Source of the DNA: Clostridia bacterium | GTDB lineage: Bacteria; Bacillota; Clostridia; Christensenellales; CAG-138 | DNA: 64,000 bases | Assembly: GCA_017545535.1 (NCBI GenBank) | Contig: JAFWMS010000028.1 | Span: 62,001 to 126,000 of the forward strand | Direction: 5' to 3' | Part shown: positions 16,838-48,012 of the stretch, one piece after another | How the letters are laid out: each line of letters starts with the position of its first letter | Numbering within the stretch: position 1 is the stretch's first letter | Notes under the pieces: model-generated | What the model was told of the DNA's origin: nothing | What the model saw: the letters and a program-made list of their open reading frames with translations, nothing else | Databases searched by the model: none | Made by a program: the position numbers and the translations under genes

Positions 16838-16986
16838 TTCTTTTTTGTCCCTTTTCTTGAAAGAAAAGGGACAAAAAAGAACTTCACTGAAACAAAAAAG
16901 CTTAAGCGAGTATCCATCAATACCCCCTTAAGCTTTTCTTTTTGCGCCGCTTTTTCTTTTCACCTGAAAAGAAAAAGCGGCAAAAA
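16838..16986. repeat. Structured intergenic repeat, copy A
   Basis: Three stem-loops in about 150 bases: a perfect 21-bp hairpin (16838-16858 with 16861-16881), a central inverted repeat around CTTAAG (AAAAGCTTAAG 16896-16906 with CTTAAGCTTTT 16927-16937), and a perfect 16-bp hairpin starting GCCGCTTTTT (16946-16961 with 16966-16981). It separates two convergent genes and probably terminates both. Related copies lie at 28213, 43657 and 47257. Relative to the last two, this copy is inverted. Confidence 0.85.
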
Positions 16987-28212: not shown

Positions 28213-28350
28213 GGCCCTTTTCTTGGTAAGAAAAGGGCCCCAAAAGAACACAAATGGGAAGTATCGTTTGCGCGGTGCTTCCCATTATCATTCTTGAGCT
28301 TCTCTTTTTTGCGCCGCTTTTTTCCTCTTCACCGAAGAGAAAAAAGCGGC
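28213..28350. repeat. Structured intergenic repeat, copy B
   Basis: Hairpin GGCCCTTTTCTT / AAGAAAAGGGCC (28213-28239), central inverted repeat AATGGGAAG (28253-28261) / CTTCCCATT (28278-28286), and hairpin GCCGCTTTTTT...AAAAAAGCGGC (28313-28350, one bulge). Its reverse complement aligns with copy D over nearly its full length, including AATGGGAAG and TTCTTTTGGG. It separates two convergent genes and should terminate both. Confidence 0.85.
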
Positions 28351-42948: not shown

Positions 42949-43632
42949 TTACAGGAACAGGCAGAATACTATCGGCAAAAAGATGGCGGGCAGCAGGTCC
43001 ATGACCTTGATATGGGTGATCTTCAGCATGTTGAGGCCGATGGGCACCAAAAGGAGGGAGCCCACCGCGCCCATTTCCACCGCCGAGGCGGCGAAGAAGG
43101 AGGCGCTGAAGAGGCCCAGGAGGGTGAAAAGGCCCTGGTACAGGAACACCGCCGCCGCACTCAGGAGCACGCCGCCGCCCATGGCGGAGGCCAGGAGCAT
43201 GGCGGAGATGCCGTCGATAAGGGCCTTGGCAAAGAGGATGGAGTGGTCGCCGGTGAACCCGTCCTGGAGAGCGCCGGTCACCGCCATGGCGCCGGTGCAA
43301 AAGAGGAGGGACGCGCTGACGAACCCGGCGGCGAAGCCTGCCTGTTTGTCGGGGCCCACCAGCTTGCCGCTCAATTTGTCCGCCAGGCGGTGGAAGCCGT
43401 CGTCGATGGAGAGGAGGGCGCCGATGGCCGCGCCCACGGCCAGGGAGAGGATCATGACCAGGGTCTTCTCCCCCTTCAGCGCCCCGGAGAGGCCGATGAG
43501 GATGACGCCCAAGGCCAACGCTTCCATGACCCGGGTATGGAGTTTTTCGGAGATGCCCTTGTGGAGCAGCAAGCCCGCTCCGCCGCCCAGCAGGATGGCG
43601 GCGGCGTTGACGATGGTGCCGAGACCTTTCAT
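42949..43632 (-). CDS. DUF554 family membrane protein
   Basis: This 227-residue protein has seven or so hydrophobic segments, glycine-rich (GTIVNAAAILLGGGAGLL at the N-terminus, the family start; VILIGLSGAL; ALIDGISAMLLASAMGGGVLLSA; IGLNMLKITHIKVMDLLPA near the C-terminus). Members are called possible transport or membrane proteins; function is not established. The ATG at 43632 follows AAAAGG. Its stop lies only 4 bases from the regulator half-site upstream of the two-component genes. Repeat copy C lies between this gene and ileS, so it is probably transcribed separately from ileS. Confidence 0.88.
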   Translation of the reverse strand: MKGLGTIVNAAAILLGGGAGLLLHKGISEKLHTRVMEALALGVILIGLSGALKGEKTLVMILSLAVGAAIGALLSIDDGFHRLADKLSGKLVGPDKQAGFAAGFVSASLLFCTGAMAVTGALQDGFTGDHSILFAKALIDGISAMLLASAMGGGVLLSAAAVFLYQGLFTLLGLFSASFFAASAVEMGAVGSLLLVPIGLNMLKITHIKVMDLLPAIFLPIVFCLFL

Positions 43633-43656
43633 GGGGTACCTTTTGGTTTGTTTTAT

Positions 43657-43810
43657 TTTGCCGCTTTTTCTCTTTCGAAAAAGAGAAAAAGCGGCGGAAA
43701 AAGAGAAACTTAAGAGACAGTATACCTGTTGTGCTTTGTCCAATTTGTCTTCAGTTGCTTCTCTTTTTTCGGTTCCTTTTTTCTCTTCGTGAGAAGAGAA
43801 AAAAGGAACA
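43657..43810. repeat. Structured intergenic repeat, copy C
   Basis: Hairpin CCGCTTTTTCTCTTT / AAAGAGAAAAAGCGG (43661-43675, 43680-43694), then CGGAAAAAGAGAAACTTAAG identical to copy D, a diverged centre, and a perfect 17-bp hairpin (GTTCCTTTTTTCTCTTC, 43772-43788, with 43793-43809). It lies downstream of ileS and upstream of the DUF554 gene. Confidence 0.85.
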
Positions 43811-43828
43811 CAGAAGAAGCTTCCGTCC

Positions 43829-46800
43829 TTATACCTTCTCCACCGACAGCCGTACGGCTTCGCCGTTCACGTCCCAGTCCTTCTCATAGCCGGAGAGGAC
43901 CGCAGAGACGCCGTCGGCCAGGGTGTCGGCGGCGATGTCCGCGGCGTACTTTTCAAAGACGGCCTTCACCTTCTCGCTGCCCTGATAGCCGATGCGGATA
44001 TGGTCCGCCACCTCGAAGCCCGCCTCCTTGCGCATGGTCTGGACTTTGCTGGTGAGCTCGCGAACGAAGCCCAGCTCGATGAGCTCCGGGGTCAGGTTCG
44101 TGTCAAGGACCACGGTCACCTGCCCGTCGGTCTCGGAAACCAGCCCCTCCTTCTTCACGGCGGTGACCAGCACGTCCTCCTCGGTGAGCTCCACGGTCTG
44201 CCCGTTGGCATCGAATGTGTACTTCCCGTACGTCTTGATGGCGTTCACGATCTCGTCGCCGGCCCCGGGCTCCGCCATCTTGTTGCGGATGGCGCCCAAA
44301 AGCTTCCCGTACTTGGGGCCCAGGGTCCTGAGCTGGGGCTTCACGGCGTAGGAGATGAAGCTGGACGCGTCGTCCACGAAACTGACCTCCTTCACGTTCA
44401 GCTCCTCGGCGATGATGGTCCGATACCCCTCGGAAAGGGGCTCGCCCTGAACGTACATGGCGGAAAGGGGCTGCCGGATCTTCATGGCGGCGTTGTTCCG
44501 GGCGGCCCGGCCCAGGGTCACGATGCCCAGCACCTCCTCCATGTTCTTTTCGAGATCCCCGTCGATGAGGCTCTCGTCCGCCACGGGGAAGTCGCACAGA
44601 TGCACGCTGAGGGGCGCGTCCGTTTCCACCCGGCGGACCATGTTCTGATAGATGGACTCGGCCATGAAGGGCACGAAGGGCGCACAGACCAGCGTCAGCT
44701 CCTTGAGCACCGTGTACAGGGTCATGTAGGCCGCTTCCTTGTCTGCGGTCATCTCGCTGCCCCAATACCGGTTCCGGCACCGGCGCACATACCAGTTGGA
44801 CAGCTCGTCCACGAAGGATTGCAGCTCCCGGCCCGCCTCGGTGATCTTGAGGGCCTCCAGGTCCTTGTCCACCGTTTGGATCAGCGTCTGCATCCTGGAC
44901 AGGACCCAGCGATCCATGAAGCTGAGATTCTCCCGCCGGAGGGCGTGCTTCGTGGGATCGAACCCGTCGATGTCCGCGTAGAGGATATAGAAGGCGTAGG
45001 TGTTCCACAGGGTGCCCATGAACTTGCGCTGATACTCGCTGACGGCCTCGCCGGAGAATCGGGAGGGCAGCCAGGGGCTGGATCCCGTGTAGAAATACCA
45101 GCGGACGGCGTCGGCGCCCTGGGCGTTGAGCACGTCGAAGGGGTTCACCACGTTCCCCAGGTGCTTGCTCATCTTCTTGCCGTCCTTGTCGCAGACGAGG
45201 CCCAGCACCACGCAGTTTTTGAAGGGCGCCTCGTCAAAGAGCAGCGTCGCGATGGCCAGCAGGGTATAGAACCAGCCCCGGGTCTGGTCGATGGCCTCGG
45301 AGATGAAATCGGCGGGATACCGGCGCTCGAACTTCTCTTTGTTCTCGAAGGGATAGTGCCACTGGGCGAAGGGCATGGAGCCGGAGTCGAACCAGCAGTC
45401 CATGACCACGCTCTCCCGCTTCATGTGCCCGCCGCACTGGGGGCAGGTCACCGTTACCGCGTCGATGAAGGGCTTGTGCAGCTCGATATCCTCGGGGCAG
45501 TCCGGGCTCATGGCCTTCAGCTCCGCCTTGCTGCCGATCACGTGGACCTTGCCGCAGTCCGGGCAGACCCACACGGGGAAGGGCGTGCCCCAATACCGCT
45601 CCCGGGTCACGGCCCAGTCGATGACGTTCTCCACGAAGTTGCCCATGCGACCGTCCCGGATGGTCTCCGGGATCCAGTTCACGCTCTTGGTGAAGCGGAC
45701 CAGCTTGTCCTTCACCGCGGTCATGCGGATGAACCACTCCTCCCGGGCGTAGTAGATGAGGGGCGTGTCGCAGCGCCAGCAGAAGGGGTAGCTGTGCTCG
45801 AAGGAGGGGGCGGAGAACAGCTTCTCCTGCCGCTTCAGGTCCTCCAAGACGGGCTTGTCCGCGTCCTTCACGAAGAGGCCGTCGAAGGGGGTGCCGCCGC
45901 ACATATGGCCGGAGGTGTTCACGAGCTGGAGGAAGGGCAGGTCGTAAACCTTCCCCACCCGGTTGTCGTCCTCGCCAAAGGCCGGGGCGATGTGGACCAC
46001 GCCGGTGCCCTCGTCCAAGGTCACGTAGCTGTCCGCCACCACCCGGTAGCCCTTCTTGCCGCCGAACCCGGCGCTCATGTCGAAGAGGGGCTCGTATTCC
46101 GTGCCCACCAGGTCCGCGCCGGAGAAGGTCTCCATGATCTCCACGTCCTCGCCCAGCACGTTCTTCACCAGCGCCTCGGCCAGGATATAGACCCCGTCCT
46201 CCCGGCGGGCCTTCACGTACACCTCGTTGGCGTTGACGCAGAGGGCCACGTTGCTGGGCAGCGTCCAGGGGGTGGTGGTCCAGGCCAGGATGCAGGTGCC
46301 GCTGCCGTCCTTCAAATAGAACTTGGCGATGGCGGAGGTCTCCTTCACGTCCTTGTAGCCCTGGGCCACCTCGTGGGAGGAGAGGGCCGTCCCGCAGCGG
46401 GGGCAATAGGGCACGATCTTGTAGCCCTTGTAGAGGAGGCCCTTGTCGTAGATGGTCTTCAGGGCCCACCATTCGGACTCGATATAGTCGTCGTGATAGG
46501 TGACGTAGGGATCGTCCATGTCCATCCAGAAGCCCACCCGGTCGGACATGTCCTCCCACTCGGACTTATACTTCCACACGGACCGCTTGCAACCCTCGAT
46601 GAAGGGCTCCACGCCGTAGGCCTCGATCTGCTCCTTGCCGTCCAGATGGAGCTCCTTCTCCACCTCCAGCTCCACTGGCAGGCCGTGGGTGTCCCAGCCG
46701 GCCTTTCTAAGCACGTCGTACCCCTTCATGGTCCGATACCGGGGGATGATGTCCTTGATGCTCCTGGTCAGCACGTGGCCGATGTGGGGCCGGCCGTTGG

Positions 46801-46948
46801 CCGTGGGCGGGCCGTCGAAAACGGTGTAGGCGGGAGCGCCCTTGCGGAGCTCCACGCTCTTCTCGAACACATGGTTCTCCTTCCAGAAGGTTAGGACCTG
46901 CTTCTCCCGGTCCACAAACTTCAGATCCGTCGATACCTTGTCGTACAT
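43829..46948 (-). CDS. ileS: Isoleucine-tRNA ligase, eukaryotic-like type 2
   Basis: This 1039-residue class I synthetase has HIGH as PHIGH at residues 54-58 (GRPHIGHVLTRSIKDI), an editing domain with TTTPWTLPSN and DEGTGVVHIAPAFGEDD, and KMSKS as KKMSKHLGN near residue 590. The length, the KMSKHLGN variant and the DUF5915-like C-terminal region (LGFVRELTSKVQTMRKEAGFEVADHI) fit the IleS2 type, which is often insensitive to mupirocin. The start at 46948 follows GGAGGAGA. Expression is controlled by the T-box leader upstream. Confidence 0.95.
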   Translation of the reverse strand: MYDKVSTDLKFVDREKQVLTFWKENHVFEKSVELRKGAPAYTVFDGPPTANGRPHIGHVLTRSIKDIIPRYRTMKGYDVLRKAGWDTHGLPVELEVEKELHLDGKEQIEAYGVEPFIEGCKRSVWKYKSEWEDMSDRVGFWMDMDDPYVTYHDDYIESEWWALKTIYDKGLLYKGYKIVPYCPRCGTALSSHEVAQGYKDVKETSAIAKFYLKDGSGTCILAWTTTPWTLPSNVALCVNANEVYVKARREDGVYILAEALVKNVLGEDVEIMETFSGADLVGTEYEPLFDMSAGFGGKKGYRVVADSYVTLDEGTGVVHIAPAFGEDDNRVGKVYDLPFLQLVNTSGHMCGGTPFDGLFVKDADKPVLEDLKRQEKLFSAPSFEHSYPFCWRCDTPLIYYAREEWFIRMTAVKDKLVRFTKSVNWIPETIRDGRMGNFVENVIDWAVTRERYWGTPFPVWVCPDCGKVHVIGSKAELKAMSPDCPEDIELHKPFIDAVTVTCPQCGGHMKRESVVMDCWFDSGSMPFAQWHYPFENKEKFERRYPADFISEAIDQTRGWFYTLLAIATLLFDEAPFKNCVVLGLVCDKDGKKMSKHLGNVVNPFDVLNAQGADAVRWYFYTGSSPWLPSRFSGEAVSEYQRKFMGTLWNTYAFYILYADIDGFDPTKHALRRENLSFMDRWVLSRMQTLIQTVDKDLEALKITEAGRELQSFVDELSNWYVRRCRNRYWGSEMTADKEAAYMTLYTVLKELTLVCAPFVPFMAESIYQNMVRRVETDAPLSVHLCDFPVADESLIDGDLEKNMEEVLGIVTLGRAARNNAAMKIRQPLSAMYVQGEPLSEGYRTIIAEELNVKEVSFVDDASSFISYAVKPQLRTLGPKYGKLLGAIRNKMAEPGAGDEIVNAIKTYGKYTFDANGQTVELTEEDVLVTAVKKEGLVSETDGQVTVVLDTNLTPELIELGFVRELTSKVQTMRKEAGFEVADHIRIGYQGSEKVKAVFEKYAADIAADTLADGVSAVLSGYEKDWDVNGEAVRLSVEKV

Positions 46949-46954
46949 ACTCTC

Positions 46955-47210
46955 CTCCAACTGTTTATTGAAAATAAAAGATCTTCCGCCCCAATACGGG
47001 GCGAAAGACCTGATCTTCCGCGGTACCACCCGCCTTGCGCAGCCATAGACTGCGCCGCTCTGTGCCCCTGTAACGGAGGGCCGCCGGAGGCCGCTACTCG
47101 CTTTTCACGTCCCCGCTCCCGGGTGATCTCGCACATGGGCCCCTTGCCGCCTTACACCGTCCGCGGCTCGCTTGAAGGGGTTGGACCATGGCTACCTGTC
47201 CCGATCCACG
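46955..47210 (-). promoter_or_regulatory. T-box riboswitch of ileS (Ile specifier ATC)
   Basis: The minus-strand leader shows the conserved T-box sequence GGGTGGTACCGCGG (47018-47031), which pairs with the uncharged tRNA acceptor end. A terminator hairpin lies at about 46979-47005 (TCTTTCGCCCC / GGGGCGGAAGA, then TCTTTTATTTT). Stem I contains the likely specifier ATC (47125-47127, in the context GCGAGATCACC), an isoleucine codon. Uncharged tRNA-Ile should favour the antiterminator and raise ileS expression. Confidence 0.92.
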
Positions 47211-47256
47211 TTTGGTAGCAGTATACACGAATGGGGACGATTTGTAAAGGGACGTT

Positions 47257-47400
47257 TTTGCCGCTTTTTCTCTTTAGACAAAGAGAAAAAGCGGCGGAAA
47301 AAGAGAAACTTAAGAAGAATAATGGGAAGTACAGCGTCAGCCATACTTCCCATTTGCGTTTCTTTTGGGTGCCTTTTCTTTTCAAGAAAGGGTGCGAAGC
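47257..47400. repeat. Structured intergenic repeat, copy D
   Basis: Hairpin CCGCTTTTTCTCTTT / AAAGAGAAAAAGCGG (47261-47275, 47280-47294), CGGAAAAAGAGAAACTTAAG, central inverted repeat AATGGGAAGTA (47321-47331) / TACTTCCCATT (47344-47354), and a decayed third hairpin (CCTTTTCTTTTC...AAGAAAGG, about 47372-47391). It fills the gap between the ileS leader and the DUF2812 operon. The bases from 47400 to 47511 show no gene. Confidence 0.85.
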
Positions 47401-47511
47401 CGAGCGCTGCCTGTGGCAGATGCAGCGAGGCGCAGCACGGGCAAAGCAAGGAGAAAGCAAGCGGCAGCGCAGCTTCGACTATGCTTTGCACCCGGTCAAC
47501 GAAGCTTTCAA

Positions 47512-48012
47512 TTATTCGTGGAGCTGGCGCTCCCGCTGGAGCTCGTCCCTCTTGCCCTGGATGCGGCCGTAGGCGTAGGCGAGAAGCCCGGCGCAAAGGA
47601 GGTTGATGCCGCCCAGGCCGTTGTAGCGCAGATTCATAAGCCCGATGCCCAGGTTAAGGATGCCGATGGGCAGCAGGATACGGCCCATGTTGTTGAGCTG
47701 CTCGATCCGGGAGTCAAGATCGCTGTTCAACTCGAAATGCCCCAGCTCGCTTTTGCGGCGGAAGTAGAGCCACTGCATCATATGGCCGATGTACTCCGCG
47801 CCAGTATCCTTCACGAAGGAGATATATGCCTCGTCCGGCTTGCGGCACTCCAGCCGCACCTCGTAGGCGCCGGGGTCCGTCCTCTCAAACCAATAGGTGC
47901 ACCAGCCTATCTGGCACAGCGTCCAGCCCTCGGCCGCCATGCTGTTGAGCCACATGTCCTCCTTTTCGAATTCCCACACCCAGAACCACTTGAATACCTT
48001 TTTCATGTCCAT
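47512..48012 (-). CDS. DUF2812 domain membrane protein
   Basis: This 166-residue protein has an N-terminal DUF2812 region (KVFKWFWVWEFEKEDMWLNSMAAEGWTL, with the E-x-W-L-x-x-M-x-x-x-G motif, then FERTDPGAYEVRLEC) and two membrane segments (about residues 108-150). Proteins of this family are routinely paired with PadR-type regulators in Clostridia; the function is not established, though membrane-stress or antimicrobial-peptide response is often assumed. It is the last gene of the PadR operon, after a 14-bp gap. GGGAGGGAG precedes the ATG. Confidence 0.88.
   Translation of the reverse strand: MDMKKVFKWFWVWEFEKEDMWLNSMAAEGWTLCQIGWCTYWFERTDPGAYEVRLECRKPDEAYISFVKDTGAEYIGHMMQWLYFRRKSELGHFELNSDLDSRIEQLNNMGRILLPIGILNLGIGLMNLRYNGLGGINLLCAGLLAYAYGRIQGKRDELQRERQLHE

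Follow-up and report, generated by a model that had tools for sequence, protein, structure and literature searches.

Dispersed intergenic repeats in the genome of a Clostridia bacterium carry, beside each of their two outer hairpins, a box that mirrors that hairpin's purine arm, and on the pyrimidine strand the box just 5' of the hairpin is, base by base, the exact third strand for a parallel triple helix of T.A-T and C+.G-C triads. This exact third-strand identity is kept. As box and arm co-vary over copies, orthologous sites and genera, the box appears to be maintained as a third strand, or at least because something reads it in the same way, and triplex-type selection on box and hairpin is highly probable. 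The best reading of the sequence comparisons is an A/T-rich, pyrimidine-motif PIT-like pair that would act at transcript 3' ends; given triplex-type selection, such a role in RNA is slightly favoured. We regard as evenly poised the whole proposal that two potential intrastrand-triplex motifs, inverted relative to one another on either side of a central hairpin, make up a dispersed element that would work as a two-way module for transcript 3' ends.

Layout and folding of the four copies

The four copies of the family (A to D) were all found where the initial annotation had placed them in the window, that is, in the whole 64-kb stretch of DNA that was analysed. They have a common layout of two outer hairpins (H1 and H2), a box on the inner side of each and a central inverted repeat, one strand reading hairpin, purine box, centre, pyrimidine box, hairpin; A and B are opposite in direction to C and D, and AATGGGAAGTA stands in the centre of B and D. 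The features are as follows.

Copy A, 16847-16981, - strand: element of about 135-150 nt
16847..16872, no strand: outer hairpin H2, a perfect inverted repeat
16875..16882, + strand: purine box AAAAGAAC, mirroring the H2 arm; pyrimidine third strand on the - strand
16898..16935, no strand: central inverted repeat (inverted repeat and folding)
16933..16943, + strand: pyrimidine box CTTTTCTTTTT, third strand for H1, equal to the parallel complement of the H1 arm GAAAAGAAAAA
16946..16981, no strand: outer hairpin H1 (inverted repeat and folding)
Copy B, 28213-28350, - strand: element of about 135-150 nt
28213..28239, no strand: outer hairpin H2 (inverted repeat)
28242..28249, + strand: purine box AAAAGAAC, mirroring the H2 arm
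28253..28286, no strand: central inverted repeat, AATGGGAAGTA... (folding)
28299..28310, + strand: pyrimidine box CTTCTCTTTTTT, third strand for H1 (parallel match to the arm)
28313..28350, no strand: outer hairpin H1, one base bulged (inverted repeat and folding)
Copy C, 43660-43809, + strand: element of about 135-150 nt
43660..43695, no strand: outer hairpin H1 (inverted repeat and folding)
43698..43709, + strand: purine box AAAAAGAGAAAC, mirroring the H1 arm
43758..43770, + strand: pyrimidine box CTTCTCTTTTTTC, third strand for the second hairpin (13-nt match, L008)
43772..43809, no strand: second outer hairpin, of the long H1 kind (inverted repeat and folding)
Copy D, 47260-47395, + strand: element of about 135-150 nt
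47260..47295, no strand: outer hairpin H1 (inverted repeat and folding)
47298..47309, + strand: purine box AAAAAGAGAAAC, mirroring the H1 arm
47321..47354, no strand: central inverted repeat (folding), terminator-like on the - strand
47359..47367, + strand: pyrimidine box TTTCTTTT(G) for H2, agreeing with the intact H2 of relatives at the same site
47369..47395, no strand: hybrid H2 hairpin, its 3' side supplied by a second repeat of about 105 nt
47390..47493, no strand: this second repeat, inside H2 of copy D and outside the family (repeat comparison)

The order of parts, the inversion of A and B relative to C and D and the centre common to two copies had been described correctly in the initial annotation, which had also given all copies the same type of second hairpin; copy C departs from this, its second hairpin being longer and of the H1 kind, not of the CCCTTTTCTT kind, as does the hybrid H2 of copy D. 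The elements have a G+C content of 35-45%, compared with about 54-64% in the window. For copies A-D on both strands, folding was far below that of shuffled sequences in 8/8 folds (z -5.9 to -13.0), with 0 of 200 shuffles folding as well as the real strand, in keeping with the earlier suggestion of selection on structure. Rfam gave 0 matches in the window at gathering score.

A candidate third strand beside each hairpin

The mirror relation reads in H1 as AAAGAGAAAAA-GCGGCGG-AAAAAGAGAAA, GAAAAGAAAAA...AAAAAGAAAAG and GAAGAGAAAAAA...AAAAAAGAGAAG, and in H2 as AAGAAA(A)(A)...(A)(A)AAAGAA, and it explains the conserved box, for which the initial annotation had no account. Mirror repeats are the product of neither slippage nor template switching, both of which give direct or inverted repeats. 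Among 394 unique purine-arm hairpins, matches of at least 10 nt numbered 91 under the triplex rule and 2 under a direct-repeat control, and a second extraction of 533 asymmetric hairpins gave 101 and 4, respectively; short T/C runs being almost self-symmetric, rule and control are closer at 7-9 nt (233 vs 160 at 7 nt). A direct-repeat origin of the box was rejected on the failure of this control.

Both hairpin types follow the rule individually. The T-run of the box equals the A-run of the arm in 115 of 127 H2-type hairpins, against a shuffle mean of 44.2 and a highest value of 61 in 2000 shuffles; most of the 12 unequal hairpins had been read from the boxless side, the real exceptions being copy A and one hairpin in L107. 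The exception in copy A involves a linker change from CC to AA, and its orthologue in genome G005, where the same box AAAAGAAC comes after an intact CCC linker, is 4/4 (box run/arm run). For H1 hairpins the side of the box was picked by the longer pyrimidine run, not by the match, and 4 of 126 undecided cases were dropped; the first 10 predicted third-strand bases were present in the hairpin's own box in 114 of 122, compared with a mean of 38.8 after swapping and 57 in the highest of 500 shuffles. Sorted by type, 112/122 H1 boxes fall on the diagonal. Seven of the 8 misses were judged to be on the wrong side, and one (L189) is a real exception.

Searches of 103 genomes of the bacterial family with four fixed patterns returned 44 cases of box3/arm3, 4 of box3/arm4, 0 of box4/arm3 and 258 of box4/arm4 (Fisher p 6e-49, not to be taken literally, as the copies are related and the counts of box-arm matches are not independent), and the backward-read pattern was found 0 times in all 103 genomes of each search. 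Other genera obey the rule with their own letters, over 17 asymmetric nt in G019 (L072) and 10 nt in G025, and matches that follow the rule also occur in G026, G036, G061 and G063. Similarly, box and hairpin switch together at orthologous sites; for example, L014 is 3/3 and L118 5/5, L021 4/4 and L175 3/3, L011 3/3 and L061/L062 4/4, and L028 4/4 where L173 is 3/3 and L178 5/5; the exception in these comparisons is L179, at 3/4. Watson-Crick pairing between the two boxes was also considered as the reason for their presence and rejected, since own and swapped pairs gave -5.27 and -5.22 kcal/mol (21 copies), with no copy specificity.

Copy number and spread across genomes

All four copies of the initial annotation are real, and the family is much larger than four: the organism's genome of 2.5 Mb has about 65 strong members. 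A search of this genome with copy D gave 81 matches, many of them both strands of one hairpin, and a covariance model (A2) built from 24 full copies gave 144 at E<=1, both strands counted; taking one per overlap at 75 bits or more left 65 strong places, 64 of which were read for gene context. The initial annotation had proposed such a model for this and related genomes as a check, with a lack of further copies and of covariation as what would speak against the family; both further copies and covariation were found, and the model matched at E<=0.01 in 26 of 61 genomes (49 candidates scored per genome). Within the genus, every one of the 12 genomes had at least 38 matches, and the remaining genomes 0 to 25. 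The exact H2 pattern is rare further off, in 3 of 398 genomes of the phylum, including that of the organism itself. An exact H2-type box and hairpin is also present in a Nanoarchaeia metagenome assembly (L253:1675-1709). Many "solo" motifs, or half-elements, are pairs whose partner went undetected.

The nearest paralogue of the 63 own copies compared has a median identity of 73% and a maximum of 87%. None of the 63 has a paralogue at 90% identity or above, and recent transposition is unsupported for that reason. Judged from these sequences, the family is old and maintained, with exchange between copies, and not the outcome of a recent burst; recombination between copies, and not current transposition, would account for their spread and for their swapping at sites. 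The open-access literature searched (bacterial triple helices, REP-like repeats and RNA triple helices) contained no description of the family, and a search with the hairpin letters gave no hit.

Place at gene ends and history of the sites

Copies A and B lie between convergent genes, and copy C between the 3' end of the IleRS gene and the start of a DUF554 gene. Copy D has the 3' end of a DUF2812 gene on one side and, on the other, a promoter-like site that precedes IleRS. These places bear out the earlier statement that all lie at gene 3' ends and two between convergent genes. Across the genome, 30 of the 64 elements are convergent, 28 tandem and 4 divergent, with 2 having one side unassigned, and most are no more than about 20 nt from a stop codon; gene context was taken from our own codon-score gene caller, and 2/64 places were flagged within predicted genes. 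For comparison, the intergenic gaps of at least 100 bp on contig 4, the elements themselves included, are 13 convergent, 41 tandem and 11 divergent.

Some elements have the same sequence in genomes G000 and G005, in flanks of 91-97% identity (C4:165318; L002), and other sites hold a different family member (C4:130886, copy C). At the IleRS-DUF554 site, G009 and G011 have half-elements, and G006 and G008 have no element at all; in these two empty sites no clean junction is visible and no target-site duplication can be defined. At L187 (G004) two elements stand in tandem, the second beginning within the first one's H2, as an insertion or a recombination at that point would leave them. Beyond H2, many copies have a loose GCTTTCAAT-N4-TTCC stretch, and a GCTTtcAAT-like core lies outside H2 in 23/63 own copies, in some cases close to the stop codon of the adjacent gene.

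Comparison with known repeats

REP/BIME elements are paired inverted hairpins found at gene 3' ends and not between divergent genes, and they are tied to RAYT Y1 transposases. The present family likewise consists of inverted palindromes at gene 3' ends; we know of no third-strand box in REP/BIME. The Y1 transposase family PF01797 is present here in only 2/12 genomes of the genus, the organism's own not being one of them. A RAYT mobiliser was thus rejected for this genome, PF01797 being the only transposase family searched, and the absence of a transposase reported in the initial annotation holds to that extent, for IS200-type Y1.

MITEs are short, dispersed, intergenic elements without genes, and in all of these respects the family resembles them. 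It differs in that the H1 and H2 ends are not matching terminal inverted repeats in most copies (copy C, with two long ends, being the exception), in having no recent copies, none of the pairs being 90% identical or more, and in the lack of a defined target duplication; together with the absence of Y1 transposase from 10/12 genomes, this speaks against a recently active MITE as a form of the MITE-like nature suggested earlier.

The closest known kind is that of the E. coli PIT/BoxC/TM-ECO intrastrand triplex motifs, as presented in PMC4666352. Both have a hairpin and a third block able to form a one-strand triplex, and both are intergenic and dispersed (PMC4666352). From the coordinates in Table 1 of that source, the inverted pairs in E. 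coli would have their third blocks inside in 4/5 cases, as here, and each would join two different types. The E. coli motif is G/C-rich, of the purine motif (class II), with the self-symmetric arm GGGAGAGGG (PMC4666352), and for that reason mirror and direct repeats cannot be told apart there. In contrast, the present family has A/T-rich asymmetric arms that favour the pyrimidine motif (class IV), and it has a central hairpin; it is located at gene 3' ends, whereas the E. coli motifs are more often upstream of ORFs (PMC4666352).

The three blocks of a PIT motif, two hairpin arms and a block equal to the third strand, stand here on one strand, and these are commoner than chance, judging by the controls, the swaps and the 0 count of the backward pattern. 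Within the ITxF limits (stems of 6-15 nt, both spacers 1-6 nt) the stems fit, but the spacer between box and arm, at about 7 nt or more, is outside, because a G/C lower stem of 5-7 bp (GCGGCGG in H1) separates them; H1 fits the wider limit of 0-10 nt of Hoyne et al., as quoted in PMC4666352.

Proposed mode of action and alternatives

The position at gene ends and the two-way symmetry suggest a role at transcript 3' ends. The triplex would form on a single strand, be it unwound DNA or nascent RNA; the following hairpin would take up the pyrimidine box in its major groove, and T/U.A-T/U triads with isolated C+.G-C triads would make this hairpin very stable; C+ requires protonation, which is a point against the proposal. 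As the ends are inverted, transcripts from either side would meet box-then-hairpin last, the central hairpin with its T-rich box may assist termination, and the triple-helix hairpin may stop read-through or 3' exonucleases. The arms, rich in T.A-T with isolated C, suit the pyrimidine motif; unlike the purine motif, it forms in RNA too (PMC4666352). The same source reports an absence of terminator activity for the E. coli PIT elements, which counts against a 3'-end reading.

The main alternative is a triplex at the level of DNA, in which DNA unwound by replication or supercoiling would adopt H-DNA or an intrastrand triplex, with stalled forks or insulated gene ends as the effect and no part for RNA. 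An RNA-only role would predict decay of the end that is transcribed hairpin-first, and equal upkeep at tandem sites counts against it: in sense RNA the box-arm match of H1 is 0.931 for box-first (n 15) and 0.942 for hairpin-first ends (n 10), and that of H2 is 0.762 (n 14) and 0.716 (n 10), both ends being equally intact regardless of gene direction. Wobble pairs (13 distinct G.T/T.G, 6 of the 13 from one stem lineage, against 5 A.C/C.A) give no clear strand preference. Known PIT motifs form triplexes as DNA in vitro and have been linked with local rearrangement (PMC4666352), and swaps, half-elements and deletions are seen at the sites here as well. However, the strong bias toward stop codons and convergent genes counts against a purely DNA-level role, some copies are conserved better, not less well, than their flanks, and the T.A-T composition fits RNA equally. 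With both ends kept equally and the wobble pairs undecisive as to strand, we give a DNA-level role some probability, if a minor one.

A non-autonomous mobile element, whose enzyme would need matching box and hairpin ends and whose insertions after stop codons would be those that selection tolerates, is quite improbable. The dispersed copies with inverted hairpin ends, the empty post-IleRS sites in G006 and G008 and the tandem or nested copy at L187 would be expected of it. IS200/IS605 elements, in addition, have short guide sequences that co-vary with their partners. The identity of copies between species at several sites, together with the lack of near-identical paralogues, of a Y1 transposase in most of the genus and of a definable target-site duplication, argues the other way.

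That these are ordinary T/A-rich terminator hairpins, whose box-arm likeness reflects low complexity, is hardly credible and already largely refuted: the hairpins are T/A rich, the copies lie at gene ends and the centre of D is called as terminator-like, but the direct-repeat control and the swaps fail, the whole-genome counts (44/4/0/258, and 0 for the backward pattern in 103 genomes) do not fit, and the outer hairpins have no T-run after them. Specifically, the outer hairpins of copies A-D do not follow the intrinsic-terminator rule (a G/C hairpin, then an immediate T-run) in either direction, and in a terminator scan of 43600-47600 the only call within family copies was the centre of copy D, on the - strand, with none within 43660-43809. 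The suggestion of mobile terminators in the initial annotation is thus supported in position only, the outer hairpins having no T-run after them and copy C no terminator-like call.

Neighbouring repeats and the IleRS start

The second repeat of about 105 nt (GGGTGCRAAGC...TTTTGCMC) is G/C-richer and lies within or at the arm of a family hairpin in 12/12 distinct copies (47390-47493 in the window; L100, L135, L011, L169, L105, L215, L148, L122, L137, L194 and L150), a biased sample, the loci having been collected in the study of the main family; the repeat resembles an element with hairpins as its target. At the copy B site of G005 (L144) another repeat, an array of tiny hairpins, occupies the place of the own-genome copy, and such arrays, here and in L075, are spaced by AAATCAT, or by ATTTAGCTATT in G026. 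At 46979-47030 (- strand), the GTG at 47029 that is listed as the IleRS start lies inside a motif (GGTGGTACCGCGG), clear in relatives, which we take to be T-box-like, beside a terminator-like hairpin at 47011-46979; Rfam called no T-box in the window at gathering score. The true IleRS start is probably downstream of this GTG.

Implications

In MALAT1/ENE, a U.A-U triple helix places a U-rich third strand in the major groove near the RNA 3' end. These systems differ from the present family in being eukaryotic and viral, with another topology and an A-rich partner at the end of the RNA, and no bacterial counterpart was found in the open-access literature searched. More tentatively, RNA triple helices might serve this Clostridia lineage as a two-way device for gene ends in general, a bacterial analogue of MALAT1/ENE 3' ends; each transcript entering a site would then end with a U-rich strand docked on a hairpin, and the three-strand co-variation over hundreds of copies would be the record of selection.

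Whether natural bacterial intrastrand triplex repeats have any function has been open since they were first described, and as those of E. coli are nearly invariant and symmetric, evolution cannot be used as a witness there. Here, the arms are asymmetric and variable and the third strand varies along with them, which provides comparative evidence of selection on third-strand identity. Moreover, the natural matched and mismatched variants at orthologous gene ends make up a test set for effects on termination, mRNA decay and genome stability.
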